Shown here piece after piece: positions 1,681-14,997 of a stretch of DNA of 32,824 nt. The position numbers were made by a program, and so were the translations under genes. How positions within the stretch are numbered: position 1 is the first letter of the stretch; each line of letters opens with the position of its first letter. Below the pieces are notes generated by a model. It did not search any database. It was not told where the DNA came from and saw nothing but the letters and a program-made list of their open reading frames with translations. The DNA is from a virus. The stretch covers positions 1 through 32,824 of IMG/VR virus record IMGVR_UViG_3300031841_003252; one strand, 5' to 3'.

Positions 1681-4023
1681 TTATCTGGAATACCTTGTCA
1701 AACCTAACAATTGATTTACTGGCGCAAATAATCCAGTTAATTTATATGTTTTACCTTTGTATACAAATACAATACCTTCCGTAGGAACCAATTTTTTAAA
1801 TCCGCCGGCAGCTTCTATACGTTTTAACTGTGTTTTCATTTTATCCAATGATGTTATATCATCACTATCTTTCAAATCTCGGACTGTATCAGCAATTTGT
1901 CTACGCAGATCCTTCACTGTATCATTTGGATTAGCAGATAAAAATTCTGATGCATTACTTAATACTTCAGTACCAAGTTTCAAAAATATGTCTTCAAATT
2001 TCACAATGTTTGCTTTGTTCAATTTGGTCATATCTTGTTTGTCAATATCCGTTACACGTTTCAGTGTTTCTGGATCTGTGATATTTTTAGCATTTAATCT
2101 GAATGATTTATCATTATATGCCCATCGACGAATTAGTCCATCTCGTTCTTCTGGTGTCAGATCTGGTAAATTTGAATCCAGATAATTTTCCCACCACCGC
2201 TGATGATACATCACAACTTCATCTGAATCTTTTAGTCCATACTCTTTCTGAAGTTGATTTATTCTATTGATATAATAACTTTCCTTTTCATCAAAATCTG
2301 GAAGTTTAGATAATGTTATAACTTTTGGCGGAATGATTTTGAAATGCTCTTGAGTATCTGCATTTACATCTGAAATCATTTTTTGTAACTGAGCACCATA
2401 TTCAGGCAGCGAATCTACTTTTGTAGCCGATTCCAAATCAAATTCATTCAGGCCATGAAACTGTAAATAAGCTTTTGGTCCATATGTTATCACATTTGCT
2501 GTGGCTGGATATATGATTTCCAGATTCACAAATCTTCGGCCGTTCTGAAACATTTCATCTCTTTGGTCTGGTGATAACGCAAGTATCGCCTTTTCCAAAT
2601 CTTCCATTGCAAATGCAAATGCATCTGATATGTCTCCTCTACCGCCAAATTTCATTTTCACAGCATCTATGTCCATTGGCTGTCTGATAGTGGCTTTGTT
2701 ACGAGCTGCTCCTACTTTACCATCTTTGAAAGTGACATTCAGATTTTGTCCATCTGTTTTTTCTGTAACATCTGATTCTCTGTTCAACTCTCCTTGCAGT
2801 GACATACGAACCAGTTCCTTCATTTCTGCAAATGTAAGATCTCTGTCATCAAATGGATGATTCATATGACCAGAAGCTCCGCCTTCTGTTATCAGTGTTC
2901 TGAATTTACCAGCCCACCATTCCTTAGTAAGTGATTCTGTCAGTGTTGCCTCAGCTTTAGTCATCGGTTCGTTCTCTGTAGAATCAATTGCTTCCTCAGC
3001 TCCTAAGAAGTTGAGAAATTTATAACCTACCCGTTCTGCTACACCTGTTATATAGTTCTGCCAACGCTTATATCCAGAAGTACCTCTGAGTTCTTTGGTG
3101 TAATTGGTACCAGAACCTATTGCTCCTACTTTACCTGTTGGGAAAAATGAAACTGTATCAACTGGCCCGGCTGGCCACATATCATTATGATTTTCAAGTT
3201 CCTGATCTGTGTTAAGAATATAATTCATAACTTTGAAACCTAACCGTTCAGCCATGGCTGCAGTCTTCTTTTGATAGGTTTTCTGATTACCATAGAAATA
3301 TCTAGGACCATCATCCACATCTGCTTTACTGCCTCCTGCGAATGATATTTCTGATATAATAGTAGTATTGCTAACGAAATTACCTATCTGTTCTGCAACT
3401 AACACACTGAATTTGTCTCTGAGTAAATTGAATATCTTGTCATCATAAAAGCCCATCACAGTTTCAAACTCTTCAGGCGATGCTGTTGCCAACACCTGTC
3501 TCAGTACTGTACCTGACATATCTCCATATCCTGGTACTCTGATTGACACGTGAGGTGCCACATACAGATAACCGTGTTTCGTGTAAGGTTGAAGATTGCC
3601 TTTGTTATCATCATAATATTGAAAAAATGTAGGTTCACCATTTCGTTTTGTGCCTACTCGAAAGCGAGGATCTTCGTCCATGTCCTTCTTACCAACTGCA
3701 AATATCACTGCAGTGGTTTCAGGATTGTATTTACCAAGTATTTCAGTGGCTTGATATGGATTGCGGACTTGTACCACATTGGTGATGTCATGAGCATTGA
3801 TCACTTGCTGCTTTTCAGAGAAATCCAAAGGCGACTTAGGCAGTTTCACTTTGTCAGAAGTGGCGACATAGGTATTGCTTTTTCCAAATCTACTTGCAAG
3901 TTTCTTGTAAACTTCAGCATGATGTTTGCCCATTGGTTGAAACCGGCCCGGATATATCACAACTATGTCACGTATATCAGCTTCATTAAGAATTGCAGAA
4001 GCTATACTTTTACCTAAATTCAT
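1681..4023 (-). CDS. Putative packaged bifunctional enzyme: NMN-adenylyltransferase-like domain plus RNA-ligase-like domain
   Basis: A 780-residue multidomain protein. Residues 1-14 form a leader ending L12-N13-E14 before A15, fitting T4-type prohead-protease cleavage. Residues about 18-215 match the HIGH-superfamily nucleotidyltransferases (NMNAT/cytidylyltransferase). The GRFQP motif is at 26-30 with H34/H35, and a second motif resembling ISGTxxR is at S170-G-T-x-x-R175. Residues about 230-345 form an unrecognised domain with two similar segments. A second protease-like site, I378-T-E380 before G381, precedes the C-terminal half. That half carries covalent-nucleotidyltransferase (RNA/DNA ligase) motifs: K422-T-D-G425 (motif I, lysine 422 the predicted AMP acceptor), L501-E502 (motif III-like), E749-G-I-V752 (motif IV) and K758/K761 (motif V). 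The inferred role is NAD or RNA metabolism in the infected cell, delivered with the DNA. No Shine-Dalgarno site is visible. The ATG is preceded 2 bases away by the recurring ATATTTATAG motif, and an in-frame stop upstream rules out a longer start. Confidence 0.8.
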   Translation of the reverse strand: MNLGKSIASAILNEADIRDIVVIYPGRFQPMGKHHAEVYKKLASRFGKSNTYVATSDKVKLPKSPLDFSEKQQVINAHDITNVVQVRNPYQATEILGKYNPETTAVIFAVGKKDMDEDPRFRVGTKRNGEPTFFQYYDDNKGNLQPYTKHGYLYVAPHVSIRVPGYGDMSGTVLRQVLATASPEEFETVMGFYDDKIFNLLRDKFSVLVAEQIGNFVSNTTIISEISFAGGSKADVDDGPRYFYGNQKTYQKKTAAMAERLGFKVMNYILNTDQELENHNDMWPAGPVDTVSFFPTGKVGAIGSGTNYTKELRGTSGYKRWQNYITGVAERVGYKFLNFLGAEEAIDSTENEPMTKAEATLTESLTKEWWAGKFRTLITEGGASGHMNHPFDDRDLTFAEMKELVRMSLQGELNRESDVTEKTDGQNLNVTFKDGKVGAARNKATIRQPMDIDAVKMKFGGRGDISDAFAFAMEDLEKAILALSPDQRDEMFQNGRRFVNLEIIYPATANVITYGPKAYLQFHGLNEFDLESATKVDSLPEYGAQLQKMISDVNADTQEHFKIIPPKVITLSKLPDFDEKESYYINRINQLQKEYGLKDSDEVVMYHQRWWENYLDSNLPDLTPEERDGLIRRWAYNDKSFRLNAKNITDPETLKRVTDIDKQDMTKLNKANIVKFEDIFLKLGTEVLSNASEFLSANPNDTVKDLRRQIADTVRDLKDSDDITSLDKMKTQLKRIEAAGGFKKLVPTEGIVFVYKGKTYKLTGLFAPVNQLLGLTRYSR

Positions 4024-4025
4024 AT

Positions 4026-4035
4026 CTATAAATAT
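4026..4035 (-). promoter_or_regulatory. Candidate late promoter-like element, ATATTTATAG in sense orientation
   Basis: This copy of the recurrent motif lies in the 24-base gap between the 94-residue gene and the 780-residue enzyme gene. It ends only 2 bases before the ATG. As a -10 element it would give a leaderless or internally started transcript. Either initiation here is unusual, or the motif is not a simple promoter for this gene. Confidence 0.35.
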
Positions 4036-4047
4036 AAGTAATTTTTA

Positions 4048-4332
4048 TCAAAGTTCAAAATTAATTTCATCATGTCCTACATCAAATCCAGCTACTATAG
4101 CTTCTGCTTCAGTGTAAGAAGTTACCCCATTAAATACAGAACCAGTTATAAATGATTGAATGTCGTCCTCATATTGAACAACACATCTTAGATCTGTGCT
4201 TCCTGTATGAGGAAATACACTATAGGCATACAAAGATGTTCTTTGATCTCTCGGAGGAGCGTTCAGATCATAAACATCTGCAGATGCTTCATATGCCGAG
4301 CCTGAGTTTGGATATTCGTAATATAAATGCAT
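4048..4332 (-). CDS. Small protein of unknown function, downstream of fibre genes
   Basis: A 94-residue acidic protein rich in Y, D, S and E. It has no signal peptide, membrane segment or recognised motif. The composition (alternating aromatic and small residues, many T/S/Y) suggests a beta-rich fold. The gene follows the stop of the arabinofuranosidase-fold gene by 3 bases and is the last in a run that starts with the 1002-residue fibre-like protein. A 24-base gap with the ATATTTATAG motif separates it from the next gene. By position it could be a small adsorption-structure component or a chaperone for the fibre genes before it, but nothing in the sequence shows which. Confidence 0.65.
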   Translation of the reverse strand: MHLYYEYPNSGSAYEASADVYDLNAPPRDQRTSLYAYSVFPHTGSTDLRCVVQYEDDIQSFITGSVFNGVTSYTEAEAIVAGFDVGHDEINFEL

Positions 4333-4335
4333 AAT

Positions 4336-5175
4336 TTAAGTATAGATTGTGTAATGATCATTTATTGCTGTTTCTATATCAGATTGAATACTAGATTTAT
4401 CGCCTTCATAAACTAAGAATTCCTGCATGTCCCACATATCCCAATTATTAAAGCTGTAACCAAGTCTAAAATTAGGAGCAGTTCCTGATCTTGTTAAATT
4501 TCCATCAACTGTTATTAAAGTCTGTGAAGTATTATCATCATGTAAAACATTACGATTGCTTGGTGAGTATGCAGCACCATTTCTTCGATAGGTATCAGTA
4601 GAATAATTACTACTTTTTATTGCTGTTGACGTGCTTCCATCTTGAGCAGCAAATTGCCATCTGTTAGGTTGATTTTCAGCATATAATATTGATCGAACAT
4701 TAGTGTTACAAACAGAGAAAAAGAAATATTGACCTGTTGATGGTATGTAATCATTTTTAGGTAAAAGAAGGTCAAGGTGTACTGCAGAACTAGCATTATT
4801 ACTCTCAATAACAGGCTTGCCGTTACTCTTTATTACTGTGCCGCTTGATACAATTTGTGGTTGTTCAGAGGTAGTTGCATTTTGCATATTACCACTCTGA
4901 CCACTTTGATCATACCAAGTGACTATGAATCCGTTATTTGAACCAACATGAGATAACAATGCTGATTCATCTAAATTACCATTAGAATCAAATCCAATAT
5001 CGGCTTCAGTATTACCTGATGATTCTCTTACTCTAATAGCATTTCCTGAATATGTGGAGGATAGTTTTCTTAAAGAATATGCTAATACTATATCAGCTCC
5101 ATACTCATCTAATAAAAATGTTTGTGATGCTTCTACTTTAGCAGTTGCACTAAAAAATGCTGCTATCATTGACAT
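4336..5175 (-). CDS. Tail/fibre protein with arabinofuranosidase B (GH54)-like catalytic-domain fold
   Basis: A 279-residue protein. Residues about 25-115 closely follow the pattern of the alpha-L-arabinofuranosidase B catalytic domain (ArabFuran-catal, GH54): AYSLRKLSS at 32-40, the AIRVRESS segment at 46-53, DIGF at 59-62 and the VTWYDQSG segment at 85-92. The family fold is a concanavalin-like beta-sandwich that binds or cleaves sugars. Phage versions often serve as receptor-binding modules, and I cannot confirm that the catalytic acids are kept. The C-terminal half (about 115-279) is rich in N, S and T with several aromatics and matches the remainder of a LamG-like sandwich. The ATG overlaps the stop of the 1002-residue fibre-like gene (TAATG), with an AGGAA ribosome binding site. 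The two products are therefore probably made together and assembled into the same adsorption structure. Confidence 0.75.
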   Translation of the reverse strand: MSMIAAFFSATAKVEASQTFLLDEYGADIVLAYSLRKLSSTYSGNAIRVRESSGNTEADIGFDSNGNLDESALLSHVGSNNGFIVTWYDQSGQSGNMQNATTSEQPQIVSSGTVIKSNGKPVIESNNASSAVHLDLLLPKNDYIPSTGQYFFFSVCNTNVRSILYAENQPNRWQFAAQDGSTSTAIKSSNYSTDTYRRNGAAYSPSNRNVLHDDNTSQTLITVDGNLTRSGTAPNFRLGYSFNNWDMWDMQEFLVYEGDKSSIQSDIETAINDHYTIYT

Positions 5176-8100
5176 TATGATTCCTGATTGATTGTAACTA
5201 ATGCAGTGTTATTGCCTATGTAATGATAATACACATAATTTCTTTTAGTAGTATCAAATGTACCATTTAAAATTTTAAATTCGGAACCTGTCAAATACAG
5301 ACCAACTGATGATGAGACATCAGTCATTATAACATTCCCTAATACAGCAAGATCTGCGTCAATAGACATTGTTAATGCTGAACCTGTGGTAACTGACATT
5401 ATTCTATTTGCTCTGAAATCTAATGTTGTATCAAATGAGGATGAATATGTGAATGATGTTTTTGATGTACTACCTGACAGAGCATATGATGCTTCTAGAT
5501 GTGTAGCTCTCATAGGTAATGACGGAGATACTGTATGCACATCAATGAAATCAGATATCTCTATGCTAGGACCATCTCCTGATTCAAGTGTTAGAGTTCC
5601 GACTGCAGATCCTACAGCAGTCACTACACTTGCTGTTACTGATCCAAGATCTCCTGCTCCGGAAAATACTGATGTGCTAGATGTGGTAAATGTTATACCT
5701 CCTATCTGGAAATTTGTCGGCCTGATATCAAGCTTGTTCTGATCAGATCTCAATGATATGAAAGAACTTGTATTTGCAAAAAATTCAAAACCTACACCGT
5801 TATATTCATCTCCTGAATCAGGTAATGCAGATCCTGAATAAAACATGAATCCTGGTGAAGCTGTGCCAGCAGATGCTGATGCAAAACCTTTATAGCCTAC
5901 TGATCTGATAAATGCAGATCCTCCATGCATTTCAATACCACTTCCAGGTGTAGAACTTAAAAACAATGATCCTGACACTATGTTGTTAACGCCGGTGATC
6001 ACTGTGTTCTCACCTTTGAATGTTACTGGATATATATATGACTCCATATCAGCAATGTTGTTGCGATAATCCAAATATTGAAATCTGAATGTGAGAGGAG
6101 TATCAAAATATGTTCTAGGTATGCGTTTGTTTATTCTTGCAACATTTGGCGTGAAACCTGTCTCTTTCACTGCCACCAATGATATATCTGCCAATGTCCA
6201 TTGACCTCTTCTGATCACAAAGAATATGTCAGCTGTATCATCATCATTTGACAGAAAATTGAATGCAACATCATTTATACTTTGACTAACATTGAATTCA
6301 ACACTGCCTAATCGTTTACCAAAAGTATTATTGTCTTCAAATATATCCTGCAAACTATCAGTCAATTGTGTCTGACTGCTTCTGACTACATATGCTGAAT
6401 TTCTAGTAGCATCGTCTGGCACGGAAATTGCATTTCTTGTGCTACCTGAAACATATACATCTACTCTTGGGAAAACAACATTAGGATCAGACGATGCTGG
6501 ATTGTCAGTGGCATGTGCCTTGAACTGTAATTTATATATTGTATCTGCTTTGAGATCTGCATGATATTGTGATGATGATATATGTATATATGCAAATCGT
6601 CTATTTGTCGCATTGAACGTATTTTCTGCTCTTATCTGAACTCCCGATACAATGTTACTAGGATTGAATACAGTGCTAACACCTTGTTCAGGTAATGTAT
6701 TTGCCCCGGAACCTGTCCAATACGTTTCAAAATCTTGTAAACTAGTAAAAAATCCAATTCTATTTTTTATAACACCATTTACATTGGAAATTTCTAAATT
6801 ATCAGGATCTTCTAATAATTCAAATTCTTCTAATACTGTATCACCTAGATCTTCAAAATCTCCAAAAAGTCCTCCGGCTTTAAACAATGTTTTTATCTTA
6901 TAGACATCACCGGTGGCTGGAGATAAATTTTCTATACGTATTTCTGCAAATGACTGTGATTGTTCTGTTACTGCTGTGGTAGGTGGTCTGAAATAACTTG
7001 CTGTGAAATTATCACTGCTTTCTATCCTATTCAAAGTATGAACTGTCCTCTGTCCACTACTATTTCTTTGTACGTATGGAAATTCAAAACTACCATTTGT
7101 ATTCAAAGCAGGGTCTCTGAAACCTGATATCTGAGCAACCTTTGCTTGTGTTGAATTCAAAACTTCTGTTATCAAAAACTCAAAACTTCCAGATGCAATT
7201 GTAGGAGCTGTTATCGTTAATGCTGGAAAACTTTGTGGATTATCTGAAGGTAATAATTCACTGTCCTGTATTTCAAAACTTGATCCTGCCGCATTAGTAG
7301 TAATGTTTATGGCAGGATCAGATATAGTAATAGTACCTCCTACCATTTCAGGTAATAATGCGAATCCATTAGACTCCAACAATGAAAAACTATTGACTGT
7401 AAATATTGGATTAGTTTGTGCAGCTGTAGGACCATTGAAGTTTTCAGCTGTTACTAATGGTTGTTGTAAAAATTGTGATCCATAATTACTAGGAGGTGAA
7501 CCGGCGGTACCGCCTCCTTGGTATGGTATTGCTGGCCCACCACCTGTATATGAAACAGCTGATCCATATGGTCTGATTGTAACTGTACCAGATCCTGATT
7601 GTGCTAGGTTAATACCTCGTAGATTTGTTATCTGCAGATAAGGTTGTGTAACTTCTTCTATGATAACTGTTGGCTGTTGTAAAAATATTATCTCAGTATC
7701 ATTTCTAAGCTCCGGTGCTACGGTTACAGTTCTTGACCATATTAAATTCGGTGATCGAACTCCATTTATTCTGTCATCCGGATCTGTGGAATATGGATAC
7801 TGTAACTGAGTTTCTTCATCATATGCTGCTCTAGAGGCTACATATACTACAGCAGGTCCAGGAGCTGTATCTGGATATATCCATACTGATACAACTCTCG
7901 TACCATCGTGTTCTGCATAATTTACAACCTCATGATAAATCGGATCTCCGTTGAAATCTAATATTTCAACATATATAGGAGCTCTATCGACTAATGTACC
8001 TGCCGCGGCCTTTATCTTAAATAAATTTTTACCTGATGTAAATTTTTCTGGAAAATCTACAATGTTAAAAAATTTTTCAGATGTTAAGGATGTATCAAAG

Positions 8101-8183
8101 ATTTGAAGTGACTGAGCATTACGTAAATCTAGTTTTTTACGTCTATGTGGAAATGTTTGCTGATTATATGTAACTCCGGCCAT
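5175..8183 (-). CDS. Long tail-fibre-like virion structural protein
   Basis: A 1002-residue protein with the composition of a beta-structured phage fibre (rich in S, T, G, N; few cysteines). The N-terminal region (about 1-170) resembles the first domain of large structural proteins in T4-like marine phages: a conserved F-K-I-K segment near 54-57, then paired beta-strands with W-I-Y-P-D-T near 101-106. This is probably the virion attachment domain. A glycine/tyrosine-rich linker (about 205-235) follows. The central and C-terminal regions contain several putative beta-sandwich domains and a serine-rich stretch of alternating short motifs ending in a polar C-terminus. No enzymatic motif is visible. 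The next gene overlaps its stop. The upstream sequence carries the ATATTTAT motif 13 bases before the ATG, with only a weak ribosome binding site. Confidence 0.75.
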   Translation of the reverse strand: MAGVTYNQQTFPHRRKKLDLRNAQSLQIFDTSLTSEKFFNIVDFPEKFTSGKNLFKIKAAAGTLVDRAPIYVEILDFNGDPIYHEVVNYAEHDGTRVVSVWIYPDTAPGPAVVYVASRAAYDEETQLQYPYSTDPDDRINGVRSPNLIWSRTVTVAPELRNDTEIIFLQQPTVIIEEVTQPYLQITNLRGINLAQSGSGTVTIRPYGSAVSYTGGGPAIPYQGGGTAGSPPSNYGSQFLQQPLVTAENFNGPTAAQTNPIFTVNSFSLLESNGFALLPEMVGGTITISDPAINITTNAAGSSFEIQDSELLPSDNPQSFPALTITAPTIASGSFEFLITEVLNSTQAKVAQISGFRDPALNTNGSFEFPYVQRNSSGQRTVHTLNRIESSDNFTASYFRPPTTAVTEQSQSFAEIRIENLSPATGDVYKIKTLFKAGGLFGDFEDLGDTVLEEFELLEDPDNLEISNVNGVIKNRIGFFTSLQDFETYWTGSGANTLPEQGVSTVFNPSNIVSGVQIRAENTFNATNRRFAYIHISSSQYHADLKADTIYKLQFKAHATDNPASSDPNVVFPRVDVYVSGSTRNAISVPDDATRNSAYVVRSSQTQLTDSLQDIFEDNNTFGKRLGSVEFNVSQSINDVAFNFLSNDDDTADIFFVIRRGQWTLADISLVAVKETGFTPNVARINKRIPRTYFDTPLTFRFQYLDYRNNIADMESYIYPVTFKGENTVITGVNNIVSGSLFLSSTPGSGIEMHGGSAFIRSVGYKGFASASAGTASPGFMFYSGSALPDSGDEYNGVGFEFFANTSSFISLRSDQNKLDIRPTNFQIGGITFTTSSTSVFSGAGDLGSVTASVVTAVGSAVGTLTLESGDGPSIEISDFIDVHTVSPSLPMRATHLEASYALSGSTSKTSFTYSSSFDTTLDFRANRIMSVTTGSALTMSIDADLAVLGNVIMTDVSSSVGLYLTGSEFKILNGTFDTTKRNYVYYHYIGNNTALVTINQES

Positions 8184-8195
8184 CAGTATACTTTA

Positions 8196-11100
8196 TCATA
8201 AATATTGTATTTTTGAATAACCACCTGTCTTTTTGATTTCAATAAGCTTATCAACAATGTCTCGCATTGCATCAATATGTGATATACACATTATGAAACC
8301 AAATTGTGTTTTCAGATAATCAAACAACATGTACATGGAGTTCAGATTGTCAGAGTCTAACACGCCAAATCCTTCATCAATTGCCAAGAAATTAGGTCTC
8401 GGTAGATTTGAAACATTGATCAGAGATGTCCGTATTGCCAGAGATGAAACAAATTTCTCCATACCAGATGTGAGTTCCAATGGCCAATAGTTATCTTCAT
8501 CATATACTATAAAGGCATTGATGTTCTTACCATCAGTTTGTAATAATATAGTGAAATTCACAATCTGTGTCAATATATTGTTTATTTCAGCTTCAATCTT
8601 TGGTAAAGCCTTTGATATCAGATAATATGGAACACCGTCACGTTTCACAGCCTTCATATAATATTCGTAACCTTGATACTGTTTTTCCAAATCTTTCAAA
8701 CGTTGAATATCTGCCTTTGTGTCAGCAATTTTCTGATTAGCAACGCTTAGCTTACCGGAAACATCAATGAGCTGCTGATCAATGTCATTGATTTCGCGTT
8801 CAATGAACGTCAATTCATTCTTATGTTCATTTATATCATTGTTAAGTTTCTGATTATGCTCAATGTATTCAATTTGTTGCAATGATTTATTCAAACTCTC
8901 ATTTAATGAATTCATTTCACTTTTCAAGTCATAATTCTGACGTTCACATTGATCCAATGATGTATTAACGTTGTAAACATTATCTCGAATTTTTCTTTTC
9001 TTGTCTTCCAGATTATCATACTCGCTCAGTTTGTTCTTGACACTATCAATATCAATTTTCTTCAGATTATCCTGTATGAATTTAACTTGATTGTTAATTA
9101 TACCTAATCTGTTCTGGAGTTCAGGTAATTTTTCGGCAATGGTCTTAGTTTCATGTAACCATGGATTTGCCATACAGTATTCACAGTCAGGATTCCATTT
9201 ATGATCATCGAGTTTAGATGTCATTCGCTGAGCATGTTCAATTTCTTTTTTCAATGACATCTGATTATACTCCATATCAGATAATTCAATTCTGCGTTGT
9301 TCGTGCAAATTGATCAATTGTTGTAAATTAGATTTATCAATTTCTGATAATTGCACATCGATATCTTTAAGCTTCTCATTTGCCTTTGATATGAATCCTG
9401 AATATTCAGTTATCTGTTTATCATTGTTTTCTAAGTCTAAATCAATTGATCTAATCTTTTCTTTGATATCTTCTGGATTTTCCAGATCATATATCTCATA
9501 TAATTGTTGTGACAATGTTATGATTATCTCATTGAGATTGCGTCGCATTTCATTGTGATCTGCTTTATCTTTTGATATTTTATCAGAAATCTTTTGATAT
9601 GTTTCACTATCTAACTCAGCGTCTGACAGATCCTTTGACAGATCTTTCTTTTTATATTCGCGAATTAATGCTGCCGTTTCTTTAATATCTTCATGACCAA
9701 TCAGATACTGTTGTTCAAAAATTTCAATGTCAAGAAACTGTGACAAAAGATCTTTACGTTCTCTCTGTGTTTTGTCAATGAAACCTGTATTATTGTTTTG
9801 TAATGATAGTGCAGTTAAAACAAAATCTTCATATGTACCAAGATAGTCTCTGATGTTTTTGTTTGTACTATCTCGTTGATCACCGTTTAGATTTTCTTCG
9901 TTGCCATTTACGTCATAACGATAGAAATTAACTGTGACTTTGACGTGATCATTGCTTTGTTTCTTACCAGAACGTTCTACACAATATGTATGTTTACCTA
10001 GTTCAAATTCAAACTTGCTCTGAAAGTTACTGCATTTATTATTGAGTACATGTGCTGCTTTTTTAGTTCGACTACATTTATCAAAACAACAAAATGCCAA
10101 AGCATCTAACAAAGTAGATTTACCAGACGCATTAGGAGCAAATAAACCATATGATCCTTGCAGTGATCCAAAATCTATAACATTGTCAGTACCATAACTG
10201 AACATGTTTGAAAATTCAAATCGTTTCGGTACCCAGGTAGTGTTTCTTGCTTGTTTGTCTAATACAAGTTTACTATGAACTGTCCTATTAATATAACGAA
10301 CAATGTCCATCATTTTATCATCTACACCATGCTCAGCTGTCAGATATTCTGATATCACATTGTTTTGCCATTCCACATCTCTGACACTACCGAAATTAAT
10401 TTTGTTAGCAGTATTTGTGGTATTGATCTCATTAACACGTTGTATTGTAATATCTTGTACTTTACATTTGCTGCGTATATGTGACGTAACAGCTTTTATA
10501 TCCGCAGCGTCAGTATTTTTAACTTTCAGTCTCAGTCTAGGCCTCAATGGTATATTTGAAATATCTGTTTTCAGTTCACCATCTTCTACATATGCTGTGT
10601 AATAACCATAGTCATTTTTTATCTCAACAAATTCAGAAGTCCTTGTTTTAACATCCCAAACCAATATACCATGTACCAGACCTTCGCCATGATTCTGTTG
10701 AATCAATGAACCTGCATATGCAATTGTCTTATCATTATCAAGATATTGCGTTTTATGAATATCTCCTAACAATGTCATGTCATGGCCATCAAATATAGTT
10801 GTTGTGACATGATCATTCTGTAGAACAAAACCGGCATCTGTGCTAGCATTATTAACTGCACCATGGTGTAATGCAATCTTTGTTTCGGCAGTTAGTTTGT
10901 GAGCTTTTATGAAATCAACCGGTTTGTCAAACACGGACATAACGTTAAAGTCCACATCGGCCAATCTATATATACCCGTGTCTTTAAGATAGTGTAAATC
11001 AGTGTGTTTGATAGCCTTAACGATAGGATAAAGAGCGTCTAAGCGATCTGAATTATTTAGGTTGCAATCGTGGTTACCGGTGATCACAATGGTAGGGGAT

Positions 11101-11348
11101 ATATCTGCCAGAGATCTGAAAAAATCAGACACCATGTCAATAAGTTCTGGCGACATATCTGTTTTGGCATGTACAATATCACCTGCCACATATATCACAG
11201 AATTAGGTGTAGCATTCTTTTTTATATAAGAATACAATCGTTTGAATACTATCTTGTATTCTTTATGACGTTTCACGTTTCGGATATGAACATCTGCAAT
11301 ATGAAAAATCTTGTCAATCTGTTTTATGTCTGTTTTTATAACGTACAT
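8196..11348 (-). CDS. gp47/gp46: Single-chain Mre11-Rad50 (SbcD-SbcC; T4 gp47-gp46) recombination nuclease fusion
   Basis: A 1050-residue protein joining both subunits of the DNA end-processing complex. Residues 1-345 are an Mre11/SbcD-type phosphoesterase with all metal-binding motifs: D19-x-H21, G56-D57, G91-N-H-D94, H161-H162 and G195-D-x-H198. After a short linker, the rest is a Rad50/SbcC-type ATPase. It has a Walker A near residues 400-410 (A-P-N-A-S-G-K-S-T), a long coiled coil, a zinc hook C-E-Y-C near 720, a second coiled-coil arm, a degenerate ABC signature (L-T-S-G-M-E-K near 960) and a Walker B (F-L-A-I-D-E-G near 990). In T4 these are separate proteins that resect DNA ends for recombination-dependent replication and degrade host DNA. 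Here one frame encodes both. The start overlaps the primase gene by 13 bases, with a GGAAG ribosome binding site. Confidence 0.93.
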   Translation of the reverse strand: MYVIKTDIKQIDKIFHIADVHIRNVKRHKEYKIVFKRLYSYIKKNATPNSVIYVAGDIVHAKTDMSPELIDMVSDFFRSLADISPTIVITGNHDCNLNNSDRLDALYPIVKAIKHTDLHYLKDTGIYRLADVDFNVMSVFDKPVDFIKAHKLTAETKIALHHGAVNNASTDAGFVLQNDHVTTTIFDGHDMTLLGDIHKTQYLDNDKTIAYAGSLIQQNHGEGLVHGILVWDVKTRTSEFVEIKNDYGYYTAYVEDGELKTDISNIPLRPRLRLKVKNTDAADIKAVTSHIRSKCKVQDITIQRVNEINTTNTANKINFGSVRDVEWQNNVISEYLTAEHGVDDKMMDIVRYINRTVHSKLVLDKQARNTTWVPKRFEFSNMFSYGTDNVIDFGSLQGSYGLFAPNASGKSTLLDALAFCCFDKCSRTKKAAHVLNNKCSNFQSKFEFELGKHTYCVERSGKKQSNDHVKVTVNFYRYDVNGNEENLNGDQRDSTNKNIRDYLGTYEDFVLTALSLQNNNTGFIDKTQRERKDLLSQFLDIEIFEQQYLIGHEDIKETAALIREYKKKDLSKDLSDAELDSETYQKISDKISKDKADHNEMRRNLNEIIITLSQQLYEIYDLENPEDIKEKIRSIDLDLENNDKQITEYSGFISKANEKLKDIDVQLSEIDKSNLQQLINLHEQRRIELSDMEYNQMSLKKEIEHAQRMTSKLDDHKWNPDCEYCMANPWLHETKTIAEKLPELQNRLGIINNQVKFIQDNLKKIDIDSVKNKLSEYDNLEDKKRKIRDNVYNVNTSLDQCERQNYDLKSEMNSLNESLNKSLQQIEYIEHNQKLNNDINEHKNELTFIEREINDIDQQLIDVSGKLSVANQKIADTKADIQRLKDLEKQYQGYEYYMKAVKRDGVPYYLISKALPKIEAEINNILTQIVNFTILLQTDGKNINAFIVYDEDNYWPLELTSGMEKFVSSLAIRTSLINVSNLPRPNFLAIDEGFGVLDSDNLNSMYMLFDYLKTQFGFIMCISHIDAMRDIVDKLIEIKKTGGYSKIQYL
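8197..8206 (-). promoter_or_regulatory. Candidate late promoter-like element, ATATTTATGA in sense orientation
   Basis: The motif core ATATTTAT overlaps the last codons of the recombination-nuclease fusion gene and lies 13 bases before the ATG of the 1002-residue fibre-like protein. It is the most divergent of the six copies after the core (GA instead of AG). It separates the DNA-metabolism island from the next structural genes. Confidence 0.35.
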
Positions 11349-12259
11349 AATATTTTTTCTTCCATTAATTTGAATTCAGACAATTCTGATGTCTGATCTA
11401 TAACTTCATGTATTTTCTGAAATCCTAGATCTGCTGGATCTGAATCTGGGAGATCGACGAAATATACATGTATACCATTTGCCATGAAATACTCAGCTGC
11501 TTCCAATGCTTGTTTGCGTGCATCTTGATCTAAGCATATGTAAATGTGTTTAACTGATTTTTCTACAAGTCTCAGTTTTAGTACATCTGATATAGTTTTA
11601 CCAAATAAAGGAATGGCATTGCGTCGAATTGCAATCGCGTCAAATACTCCTTCGACTAAAACGATAGGCTGTTTCCAATCGACATGTAGTTCAAATCCAA
11701 CCACATTCTTTGATATGGATGGATTCTTATATTTCAATGTATCATCTTTGTAATATGCTCTAGCAACAAAATAATTCAGGTTAGCAGCATCATCATAGCT
11801 TGGTATAATGATCTTACCTCCATATTGACCTGAATCACAGTATCCTATTCTGTATTTCAGAATATCAGTAAGCGTGATTCCTCGTTTAGCAAGATAATGA
11901 AATGCATTACGAAACTCTGGATCAGTTCGTTGCTTCCATAATGGTTTGAATTCTGATGGTAATGTTACGACCGGAGTATTAGTAGATGTATATTTTGATT
12001 TGATCTGAACATCTTCTATGAGTTCAGCTAATCGTACAAATTTATTTCTGTCTACTTTCAGTTTACGAAACAGTGTATGTATCTTTCTACCTGCTGCATT
12101 ACATACCCAGCAATGCCAATGCTGTGTGACGATGTTAACTTCCAGCTTTCGTTTATGGTGATTACAGAAAGGACAGTGATAAGGAATGTTATCAGATTTC
12201 TGTTTACCAGAAGAACCAAGCACAGAGTCTAAGAGAGAAATAACAGCATATCTGCTCAT
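11336..12259 (-). CDS. DNA primase with zinc-finger and TOPRIM domains
   Basis: A 307-residue primase, which makes RNA primers for lagging-strand replication. Residues 29-53 form a zinc finger: C29-P-F-C32, then histidines 34/35, then C50-W-V-C53. This matches the template-recognition finger of DnaG/T7 gp4-type primases. The TOPRIM core follows: glutamate 203 in L-V-E-G-V-F-D (201-207), then L-D-Q-D (243-246), with D-P-A-D-L-G near 274-279. No helicase domain is fused, so it is a stand-alone primase like T4 gp61, with an arrangement nearer to the DnaG/T7 type. Its 3' end overlaps the recombination-nuclease fusion by 13 bases. It is preceded by the only long non-coding gap in the window (158 bases). 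No strong ribosome binding site is visible before the ATG. Confidence 0.92.
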   Translation of the reverse strand: MSRYAVISLLDSVLGSSGKQKSDNIPYHCPFCNHHKRKLEVNIVTQHWHCWVCNAAGRKIHTLFRKLKVDRNKFVRLAELIEDVQIKSKYTSTNTPVVTLPSEFKPLWKQRTDPEFRNAFHYLAKRGITLTDILKYRIGYCDSGQYGGKIIIPSYDDAANLNYFVARAYYKDDTLKYKNPSISKNVVGFELHVDWKQPIVLVEGVFDAIAIRRNAIPLFGKTISDVLKLRLVEKSVKHIYICLDQDARKQALEAAEYFMANGIHVYFVDLPDSDPADLGFQKIHEVIDQTSELSEFKLMEEKILCTL

Positions 12260-12417: not shown

Positions 12418-12831
12418 TCAAACTTTTAACCATTCATTTGGAATTTGTTTTTCTGACCATGCAATTCCATGCTTGTCACAAAAGTCCCCGTAGGTGGTTT
12501 TGGAACCTTTTCTGATCTTTGTTTTTGCTGATTGAAACACTATTCTGATATCAAGTTCTGGATGTTGTTTCTTTATCAACAAATGTTTTTTACGATCTTC
12601 TGTGGTCCACCGTCCTTTAGTTTCAATCAATATACCATTAGGTAATGTGAAATCGACTGTATAAGTACTTTGTCTCTCAGGTATAATATAATTAATTTTT
12701 GTCGTTTCATAAACCTTTTTCGGATCTATTTTCTGTTCAGTAAGCTGATCTGCTATCTTAACTTCAAATCCTGATCTATAACCCGACTTCAACGCATCGC
12801 GTCGTGTCTTACTTCGACTTCTCCAGCCCAT
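12418..12831 (-). CDS. Endonuclease I-type Holliday-junction resolvase
   Basis: A 137-residue nuclease of the T7 endonuclease I family (Phage_endo_I, T7 gp3). Its restriction-enzyme-like active site is intact: E23 in the S-G-F-E-V segment, D60 in T-V-D-F, and E70-x-K72 in I-E-T-K-G-R-W. The D-to-E-to-K spacing (10 and 2 residues) equals that of T7 endonuclease I (D55, E65, K67). The family cuts branched DNA, including Holliday junctions and replication forks, and debranches DNA before packaging. In T4 this job belongs to endonuclease VII (gp49), so the T7-type enzyme may substitute for it here. The length is close to the T7 enzyme (149 residues). The ATG is directly adjacent to the stop of the LamG structural gene, with a GGGA ribosome binding site inside that gene, so expression is tied to late structural transcription. 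Confidence 0.93.
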   Translation of the reverse strand: MGWRSRSKTRRDALKSGYRSGFEVKIADQLTEQKIDPKKVYETTKINYIIPERQSTYTVDFTLPNGILIETKGRWTTEDRKKHLLIKKQHPELDIRIVFQSAKTKIRKGSKTTYGDFCDKHGIAWSEKQIPNEWLKV

Positions 12832-14997
12832 CTAGTAGTCCCATCTTAAAATAATGTTAGTATCTATGTCCGGTCTTTTTTGCACTGCCTGAGACATTTT
12901 ACCAACTGCTAATAACTGTCTATATCTGTTATATAATCCGATGGTAGTTACGTACGGATTTGCTGTCCCAGATATGAACATTGTTTTGATATGATTTCCT
13001 GGCATGGATAATATTTCATTAGGTAAACATGGATCTGTACCTTTTGTTGTTTTTCTATACGTTGCTGTAGGATTTGTACTTACATTCAATTTACCTGCAG
13101 GAATCCTCACCATTACTTCATTTTCATATATAGTATGTATACCACGATATCTTAAATCAAAACTTCCAGTCTCTTCTGGAAAAAATACACCAGAACCGGT
13201 TGTATGTTTTTTCAATGGTGATGTCACAACAACAGATCCTTGATTATAGAACACATTACCCATTACACTACTTTGATATAATGAAGCTGATAGATAATGT
13301 CTATTTGTCAATGAGTTTATTGCTTTGGTAGATACTGCATAATCATACATTCTAAGTTCAGCTATATCAAATGGATTATGATAAATGTCACCATCACCTG
13401 ATACTCTGGAATCAAAAATTAATTCTGCATTCCCTTCTAATGTAACTTCGGCTGACCCATTGAGTATTAAATTAGTAGCTACATAAACTTGAGCATCTGG
13501 TTCGATAATGATATTAGCAGCATCCTCTAATGTTAAACTTCCATTAATGATCAAAACTGTGTTAGTAGGAACTGTTAATGTGATACCATTGTTTATAACA
13601 AGATCTGTATTTGAATATCTCGTAACATTGGTCGGTAAAGTGAGATCTGAACTAACAGGATTTGGGATATTACTTGACCCCGATGGTGTCGGTGGCACTA
13701 ATGTTGTAAATGCTGCTAATGAACCTAAGACAATATCATATTGATTACCTAAATTACCTTTTGGCAATGAACCACTGTCAACAAGTGTTCCATTGATATA
13801 AAGTTCAGCTAACGAATTACTATTTCTGATCAATATATGATCCCAACTAGTATTCACATCGCCGGTAGTTGTTATTTTAGATCCTGATAAATGTAATGAT
13901 TTTGAACCATTACTAGCTTGAAAATGATAAGCTGTATTATCAGATCCATCACATACCATACCAATTGAAAACGGTGTTCTATATTTATCAAAATTCTGAT
14001 TAATGGCAGGCGCTTCATAAACTACATCACGTAATTCAAATGTATTATCTGCTGTATTATATACACGTTCTCGTTTAATCGTACTTTTACTTAAAATAGA
14101 ATATGGACCAGTATCATTAGAACCTTTTTTGATCCAGAAAGCTATTGTATAATCATCACAGAATCCAAATCTATCAAAAAGATTACCATTACTACGTCTG
14201 TCCGGATCTGTAGGTATTCCATTTTCATAATGAGCAATTCTAATGAATGATGAAGAATCGATAAATCTAGCAGCAAGGCCAGATGGTTGATCTATACCCG
14301 TTGTTCGAACTCCATTGACAATTTGTATGTTATTGAAATCATAAACAGAATTTGTTTGTTTCTGATAATGATCTAGATTTGTGGGAGCACCTTTAAAGTA
14401 ATATTTGAATCTATCAACCGCTGCCTCTTCCAATTTACCTTGCGAAAATCTTAATTGACGATATTCGTCATTGAATGATAAATGTAACAAACTCCTACTA
14501 GATGATGCAAAACTCGAACTGTCAATCTGATGATCTCTCAGATTGCCATAACCATCATCCTTTGCAATGTAATTTATATCACCTGGTCCAGTAACTGTTA
14601 ATGATACACTTTCTTTTTTTATGCCTTCGCCCATTTCAAAATATGGTATAGACATCACAGATGCTGAAAACCAAAGAAATTTTTCAGTATTTTCTATATC
14701 ATATAGTTCTTGAGTCTTTGTTGGATCAAAAGGTTTATCATAATATCTATGATCTATTCCATGCCATATAACATGTTTGTTTACTTTTGTTTCACTGTTT
14801 ATGGTGTAATTATATGTAGGATCTCCTACATTTACTTCTGGGTATTTACGTCCTAGATATATTGCATCATATCTAGTATAACCACTGCTAGTAGCAAACG
14901 ACTCGTTATTGATACCATAATGTTTATACGTCTTTACAGGTCGTTGATGTATATCCCTGCTTTTTACTGGATGATATATGTAAGGACGTGTTGCCAT
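12832..14997 (-). CDS. Virion structural protein with LamG domain split by a beta-solenoid-like insertion
   Basis: A 721-residue structural protein. The N-terminal about 250 residues are tyrosine-rich and resemble structural proteins of T4-like phages. A LamG/concanavalin-type beta-sandwich follows: T-I-A-F-W-I-K near 280 and E-L-Y-I-N-G-T near 402, with the last strand (I-A-E-L-R-M-Y-D-Y) near 545. Between the last two lies an insertion of roughly 100 residues (about 430-535). It has regularly spaced hydrophobic and N/G residues (N-N-G-I-T-L, I-N-G-S-L, L-N-G-S-A, L-E-G-N-A), typical of short beta-solenoid rungs. The C-terminus (about 640-721) shares a module with the adjacent 449-residue protein. 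LamG domains bind glycans, so a receptor-binding or capsule-binding role is likely. The start follows the preceding stop by 18 bases. Confidence 0.75.
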   Translation of the reverse strand: MATRPYIYHPVKSRDIHQRPVKTYKHYGINNESFATSSGYTRYDAIYLGRKYPEVNVGDPTYNYTINSETKVNKHVIWHGIDHRYYDKPFDPTKTQELYDIENTEKFLWFSASVMSIPYFEMGEGIKKESVSLTVTGPGDINYIAKDDGYGNLRDHQIDSSSFASSSRSLLHLSFNDEYRQLRFSQGKLEEAAVDRFKYYFKGAPTNLDHYQKQTNSVYDFNNIQIVNGVRTTGIDQPSGLAARFIDSSSFIRIAHYENGIPTDPDRRSNGNLFDRFGFCDDYTIAFWIKKGSNDTGPYSILSKSTIKRERVYNTADNTFELRDVVYEAPAINQNFDKYRTPFSIGMVCDGSDNTAYHFQASNGSKSLHLSGSKITTTGDVNTSWDHILIRNSNSLAELYINGTLVDSGSLPKGNLGNQYDIVLGSLAAFTTLVPPTPSGSSNIPNPVSSDLTLPTNVTRYSNTDLVINNGITLTVPTNTVLIINGSLTLEDAANIIIEPDAQVYVATNLILNGSAEVTLEGNAELIFDSRVSGDGDIYHNPFDIAELRMYDYAVSTKAINSLTNRHYLSASLYQSSVMGNVFYNQGSVVVTSPLKKHTTGSGVFFPEETGSFDLRYRGIHTIYENEVMVRIPAGKLNVSTNPTATYRKTTKGTDPCLPNEILSMPGNHIKTMFISGTANPYVTTIGLYNRYRQLLAVGKMSQAVQKRPDIDTNIILRWDY

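Follow-up and report, generated by a model that had tools for sequence, protein, structure and literature searches.

Single-chain fusions of Mre11 and Rad50 were described by Yoshida, Claverie and Ogata in 2011, who recognised such a protein in the Mimivirus gene product R555 and identified twelve further fusions in bacteria, plasmids, eukaryotes and the Bacillus phage 0305phi8-36 (PMC3175470). These fusions were found not to be monophyletic and were attributed to several separate fusion events (PMC3175470). The helix-loop-helix (HLH), with a joint nine to twelve residues long, was observed to fit the Thermotoga complex, R555 was noted to possess an Asp where the Pyrococcus protein has His206, and marine GOS scaffolds were reported on which R555 homologues lie beside genes for phage primases and T7-type endonucleases (PMC3175470). 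Beyond this study, our literature searches retrieved a single further paper naming R555 together with Mre11 and Rad50, and no experiment on any member of the family was found in the literature searched. The gene analysed here had been singled out in the original prediction for its fused state, but this state is not unusual, such fusions having already been described in 2011 (PMC3175470); the encoded protein is a real, ordinary example of an already known kind of fusion.

The window, that is, the whole 32,824-nt stretch analysed here, corresponds to the IMG/VR record IMGVR_UViG_3300031841_003252. The fusion gene occupies positions 8196-11348 on its minus strand and comprises 1050 codons plus a stop, running uninterrupted from ATG to stop, while the plus strand of the same interval contains many stops and is not open. 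The original prediction had placed the open reading frame (ORF) at this position without naming a strand, which can now be given as minus, and it had proposed that a nuclease and an ATPase share one frame of 1050 residues. Both halves were indeed recovered in the same chain: Pfam searches matched Metallophos at residues 13-190 (3.8e-08) and AAA_23 at residues 380-596 (1.4e-12), the former in agreement with an NCBIfam match to SbcD (TIGR00619, 2.2e-09), and a PHROGs search matched the SbcC family phrog_77 at residues 281-1048 (1.6e-42). An AlphaFold2 model and structural alignments likewise support the assignment of the gene as an Mre11-Rad50 (SbcD-SbcC) fusion. A search with PADLOC returned only generic SMC-like matches (LmuB at 4.2e-24, mad3 and others), all weaker than the SbcC match in PHROGs, and a role as a defence system was rejected.

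The model of the full chain (mean pLDDT 84) contains a phosphoesterase core, a capping domain extending to residue 304, an HLH, a joint, and a Rad50 head with its coiled coil; because its pTM is only 0.45, the placing of the two halves relative to each other is not confidently predicted. From the N-terminus, and always on the minus strand, the chain begins with the Mre11/SbcD phosphoesterase core and capping domain (residues 9-304; positions 10437-11324), which align with SbcD and Mre11 with Z scores of 23-24 (alignment over residues 6-304), the strands modelled at residues 247-304 matching the capping domain of SbcD (VIA-align). A tether (residues 305-324; 10377-10436), in which pLDDT falls below 50 at residues 306-317, as in a flexible loop, leads to the HLH, which in canonical complexes forms the Rad50-binding domain of Mre11 (residues 325-359; 10272-10376), modelled as helices at residues 325-340 and 344-359 and conserved in both homologue alignments (A1 and A2). 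The fusion joint itself is 12 residues long (residues 360-371; 10236-10271) and lies between the HLH and the equivalent of residue 1 of SbcC/Rad50, with which residue 372 of the model pairs (VIA-align). It is followed by the N-lobe of the Rad50/SbcC ATPase with AAA_23 and Walker A (residues 372-542; 9723-10235; Walker A at 10113-10139), an antiparallel coiled coil of modelled helices with a CxxC zinc hook (residues 543-901; 8646-9722; hook at 9174-9185), and the ATPase C-lobe, which carries the signature motif (8457-8471), Walker B, the D-loop and the H-switch (residues 902-1050; 8199-8645). Residues 372-1050 as a whole align with E. coli SbcC (7yzo) with a Z score of 30.4.

On the Rad50/SbcC side, the Walker A (residues 404-412), the hook CEYC (722-725), a signature-like motif and a Walker B ending in DE (991-992) were each located by residue in the one chain, as anticipated from the sequence, together with the H-switch (H1024) and the bipartite head. 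The signature, TSGME at residues 960-964 and called degenerate in the original prediction, differs from the canonical LSGGE type of E. coli SbcCD and Thermotoga Mre11:Rad50. The ATP motifs show little or no variation among homologues, and both hook cysteines are invariant in 65/65. On the nuclease side, motifs I-IV of canonical Mre11/SbcD (DxH, GD, GNHD, HxG) are all present, as DVH (19-21), GDIVH (56-60), GNHD (91-94) and HHG (161-163). All five phosphoesterase motifs had been claimed, which holds for these four; motif V, however, reads GDIH (195-198) rather than the canonical GHxH, and it does so in every one of the 65 homologues.

Nuclease activity is consequently not assured, since an Asp replaces the metal-binding His of motif V in all homologues, and the nuclease half might be degenerate, leaving a protein that works chiefly as a DNA tether driven by ATP; the same replacement is present in R555 (PMC3175470). 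A dead site would nevertheless be expected to decay, and the other residues of the metal site vary little or not at all in the homologue alignment (D19, D57, N92, H93, H162 and H198 invariant; H21 conserved at 90% or more). Moreover, Asp is itself able to bind metal. A mere tether is therefore an improbable description of the protein, and we infer that a nuclease operates with the GDIH site.

The span from E326 to F377, which covers the junction between HLH and Rad50, measures 52-53 residues in 65/65 homologues. A short linker had been foreseen at about residues 345-385; its shortness stands, but these limits overstate the joint, because most of that stretch belongs to helix 2 of the HLH and to the first strand of Rad50, the true joint being confined to residues 360-371. 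Since in-frame ATG codons occur near the joint (residues 346, 347 and 382), one could imagine that the single ORF gives rise to a working enzyme made of two proteins, through an internal start or through proteolytic processing at the joint. No Shine-Dalgarno-like stretch was found before these in-frame starts, though, and an internal start would still leave the upstream frame fused, while a joint that is short and of fixed length is what would be expected of a structural tie; we give such an arrangement very little credence and consider it more likely that the chain works in its fused form.

The search for further fused homologues called for by the original prediction was productive. A first scan of IMG/VR yielded 37 contigs, 32 of which encode the fusion according to a direct two-domain test, the other five either stopping within the nuclease half or close to the joint, or giving no more than a short match. 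A second, alignment-based scan retrieved at least 583 related stretches, the best 80 of which are all fused. One of these 80 had already been recovered in the first scan, which gives about 111 distinct fused contigs (32 plus the best 80 of at least 583), 41-97% identical to the window protein; as the ranking favours whole-query matches, unfused relatives may be under-counted, and the counts are no measure of their frequency. Among the contigs listed, the junction is open in every one long enough to reach it. Further fused copies were found in four MAG contigs, in Microcystis phage Mel-JY01 and in a 735-kb uncultured phage; no plasmid record covering 80% of the query was retrieved when plasmid fusions were sought. 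In phylogenetic trees the fused sequences are set apart from six unfused outgroups with support of 99-100, on long branches and with few outgroups and thin sampling.

Comparison of the window gene with its 97%-identical relatives revealed 179-190 synonymous against 30-33 nonsynonymous codon changes (dN of about 0.015-0.018 and dS of about 0.40-0.43 against the nearest contigs), indicating that purifying selection at the codon level is strong across the fusion gene. Although many phages and bacteria have the two genes next to each other or overlapping (they overlap in Vibrio phage D254 and lie side by side in Ilyobacter), so that an indel could fuse them artificially, an assembly or sequencing error is refuted by the independent fused homologues, with a single frame in about 111 contigs of many metagenomes (including the best 80 of at least 583) and in the isolate Mel-JY01, by the constancy of the junction length and by the selection on codons, and it can be set aside. 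That the gene is a natural single-chain Mre11-Rad50 fusion is thus well supported, since it forms one frame in independent contigs and an isolate, evolves under purifying selection and has halves that match the structures of Mre11 and Rad50.

Three of the contigs surveyed display peculiarities of their own. One of them, CALBOT010000005.1 (11 kb), encodes the fusion at 63% identity; it is binned under Candidatus Nitrosopelagicus but is probably of phage origin and placed in the wrong bin. The fusion gene of an uncultured phage of 484 kb (LR756508.1, positions 3953-8178) contains, directly after motif V, an interruption of about 0.9 kb, within which an ORF (4674-5591) matches the HNH endonuclease phrog_1271 and a TnsA-like domain (PF08722); an intron, a homing insertion and a split protein are the candidate explanations, and a search of this interrupted copy for a group I intron gave no Rfam match. 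Finally, a contig binned as Bacteroidales (L138) encodes, at positions 6001-6834 and near a primase gene, a 277-residue SbcD-like protein with GHIH and without the HLH, beside which no adjacent SbcC was detected.

The genetic neighbourhood of the fusion is well conserved. Its start overlaps by 13 bases with a gene for a DnaG-type DNA primase with a CHC2 zinc finger and a Toprim domain (11336-12259, minus strand), and a primase lies upstream of the fusion in all 93 loci whose sequence extends 1.2 kb or more upstream, some of these loci being near-duplicates. Next upstream of the primase is a T7-type endonuclease I of the Holliday-junction resolvase family (12418-12831, minus strand; Pfam Phage_endo_I, 1.7e-52), which recurs in 69 of the 72 loci that extend 2.5 kb or more upstream, again including near-duplicates. 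On the downstream side, a homologue of the 1002-residue protein encoded in the window follows the fusion in 62/62 loci (some near-duplicates), and T4-type baseplate genes are located farther along the window. The minus strand also encodes, at positions 1681-4023, a 780-residue protein with a weakly cytidylyltransferase-like N-terminus (Pfam E-value 0.0032; phrog_395, 2.3e-04), in which a KTDG stretch also recalls the nucleotidyltransferase ligases; in several loci, homologues of this protein are found 5.8-8.2 kb after the fusion. Virion-region proteins with weak carbohydrate-related matches are encoded on the same strand at 4336-5175 and 12832-14997 (ArabFuran-catal, 2.8e-05; Laminin_G_3, 4.6e-06) and are possibly receptor-binding.

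Taken together, we consider it likely, with a probability of roughly 85%, that the protein is a fused Mre11-Rad50 machine from an aquatic, T4-like phage with a contractile tail, the phage counterpart of Mimivirus R555, which acts as an M2R2-like complex in a role like that of gp46/47. Two chains would most likely pair into the equivalent of M2R2, their nuclease parts forming the usual Mre11 dimer below two Rad50 heads that sandwich ATP. Each HLH would hold a Rad50 coiled coil at its root, presumably in cis, with the 12-residue joint bridging the small distance that separates the HLH from the Rad50 N-terminus. Binding and hydrolysis of ATP would then open and close the path by which DNA ends reach the nuclease, and the zinc hook would link the coiled coils. 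During infection, such a complex would probably resect DNA ends and thereby feed recombination-dependent replication and repair, as T4 gp46/47 do. The fusion might also fix a 1:1 stoichiometry, although the canonical M2R2 complex is already 1:1. A more far-reaching proposal, which we regard as doubtful, is that the fused form is the only one in a large clade of aquatic tailed phages, that the 52-53-residue junction is a mechanical element compelling each HLH to bind its own chain's coiled coil, and that GDIH changes the nuclease; were own-chain contact and a changed nuclease to hold, the ATP-gated movement of the halves would differ from that in two-protein Mre11-Rad50.

These observations give the marine R555-like sequences, orphans in the 2011 study, a recognisable setting among phage genes for primase, endonuclease I and tail proteins, and suggest that being fused is the rule in an abundant group of phages that includes a cultured relative. 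What is added to prior knowledge is a firm phage context, that cultured relative, the constant fusion in the sampled contigs and the conserved length of the joint. The protein also offers structural work a compact one-gene Mre11-Rad50, in which the chain itself sets the subunit ratio and the tethering of the HLH.

Among known systems, R555, compared here by its published description, is the closest in organisation. As in R555-type proteins, an Mre11-like part precedes a Rad50-like part in one chain, the capping domain and HLH are kept, the joint of 12 residues falls within the expected nine to twelve, an Asp stands at the first His of motif V, and primase and T7-type endonuclease genes lie nearby, as on the marine scaffolds of 2011. 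R555 is nevertheless longer (1351 residues against 1050), has a longer coiled coil and belongs to a giant virus rather than a tailed phage. The best structural matches in BFVD are giant-virus fusions from Tupanvirus (25% identity over 1320 columns), Harvfovirus, Yasminevirus and Catovirus; proteins of 1310-1318 residues from Tenacibaculum phage match over most of the length as well. The cultured relative, Microcystis phage Mel-JY01, on which no paper was found in literature searches, encodes the same fusion (WWT39521.1) downstream of a primase gene, 43% identical to the window protein over 99% of its length and annotated as an 'AAA domain containing protein' with no mention of the fusion. Its 190-kb genome, annotated as complete, contains a single Metallophos and a single AAA_23 match, both in the fusion; unlike in the window, its primase gene is separated from the fusion by a small ORF and has a GIY-YIG gene upstream. 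T4 gp47 and gp46 provide the same two activities by homology and have a similarly short coiled coil, but they show no close sequence similarity to the window protein, are encoded by separate genes (46 and 47) with two small ORFs between them instead of one ORF, and carry, like cyanophage gp47, GHFH rather than GDIH at motif V. With E. coli SbcCD and Thermotoga Mre11:Rad50, finally, the protein shares the fold of both halves, the HLH, the Rad50 heads and the hook, whereas those systems consist of two genes each and the coiled coil of SbcC is longer.
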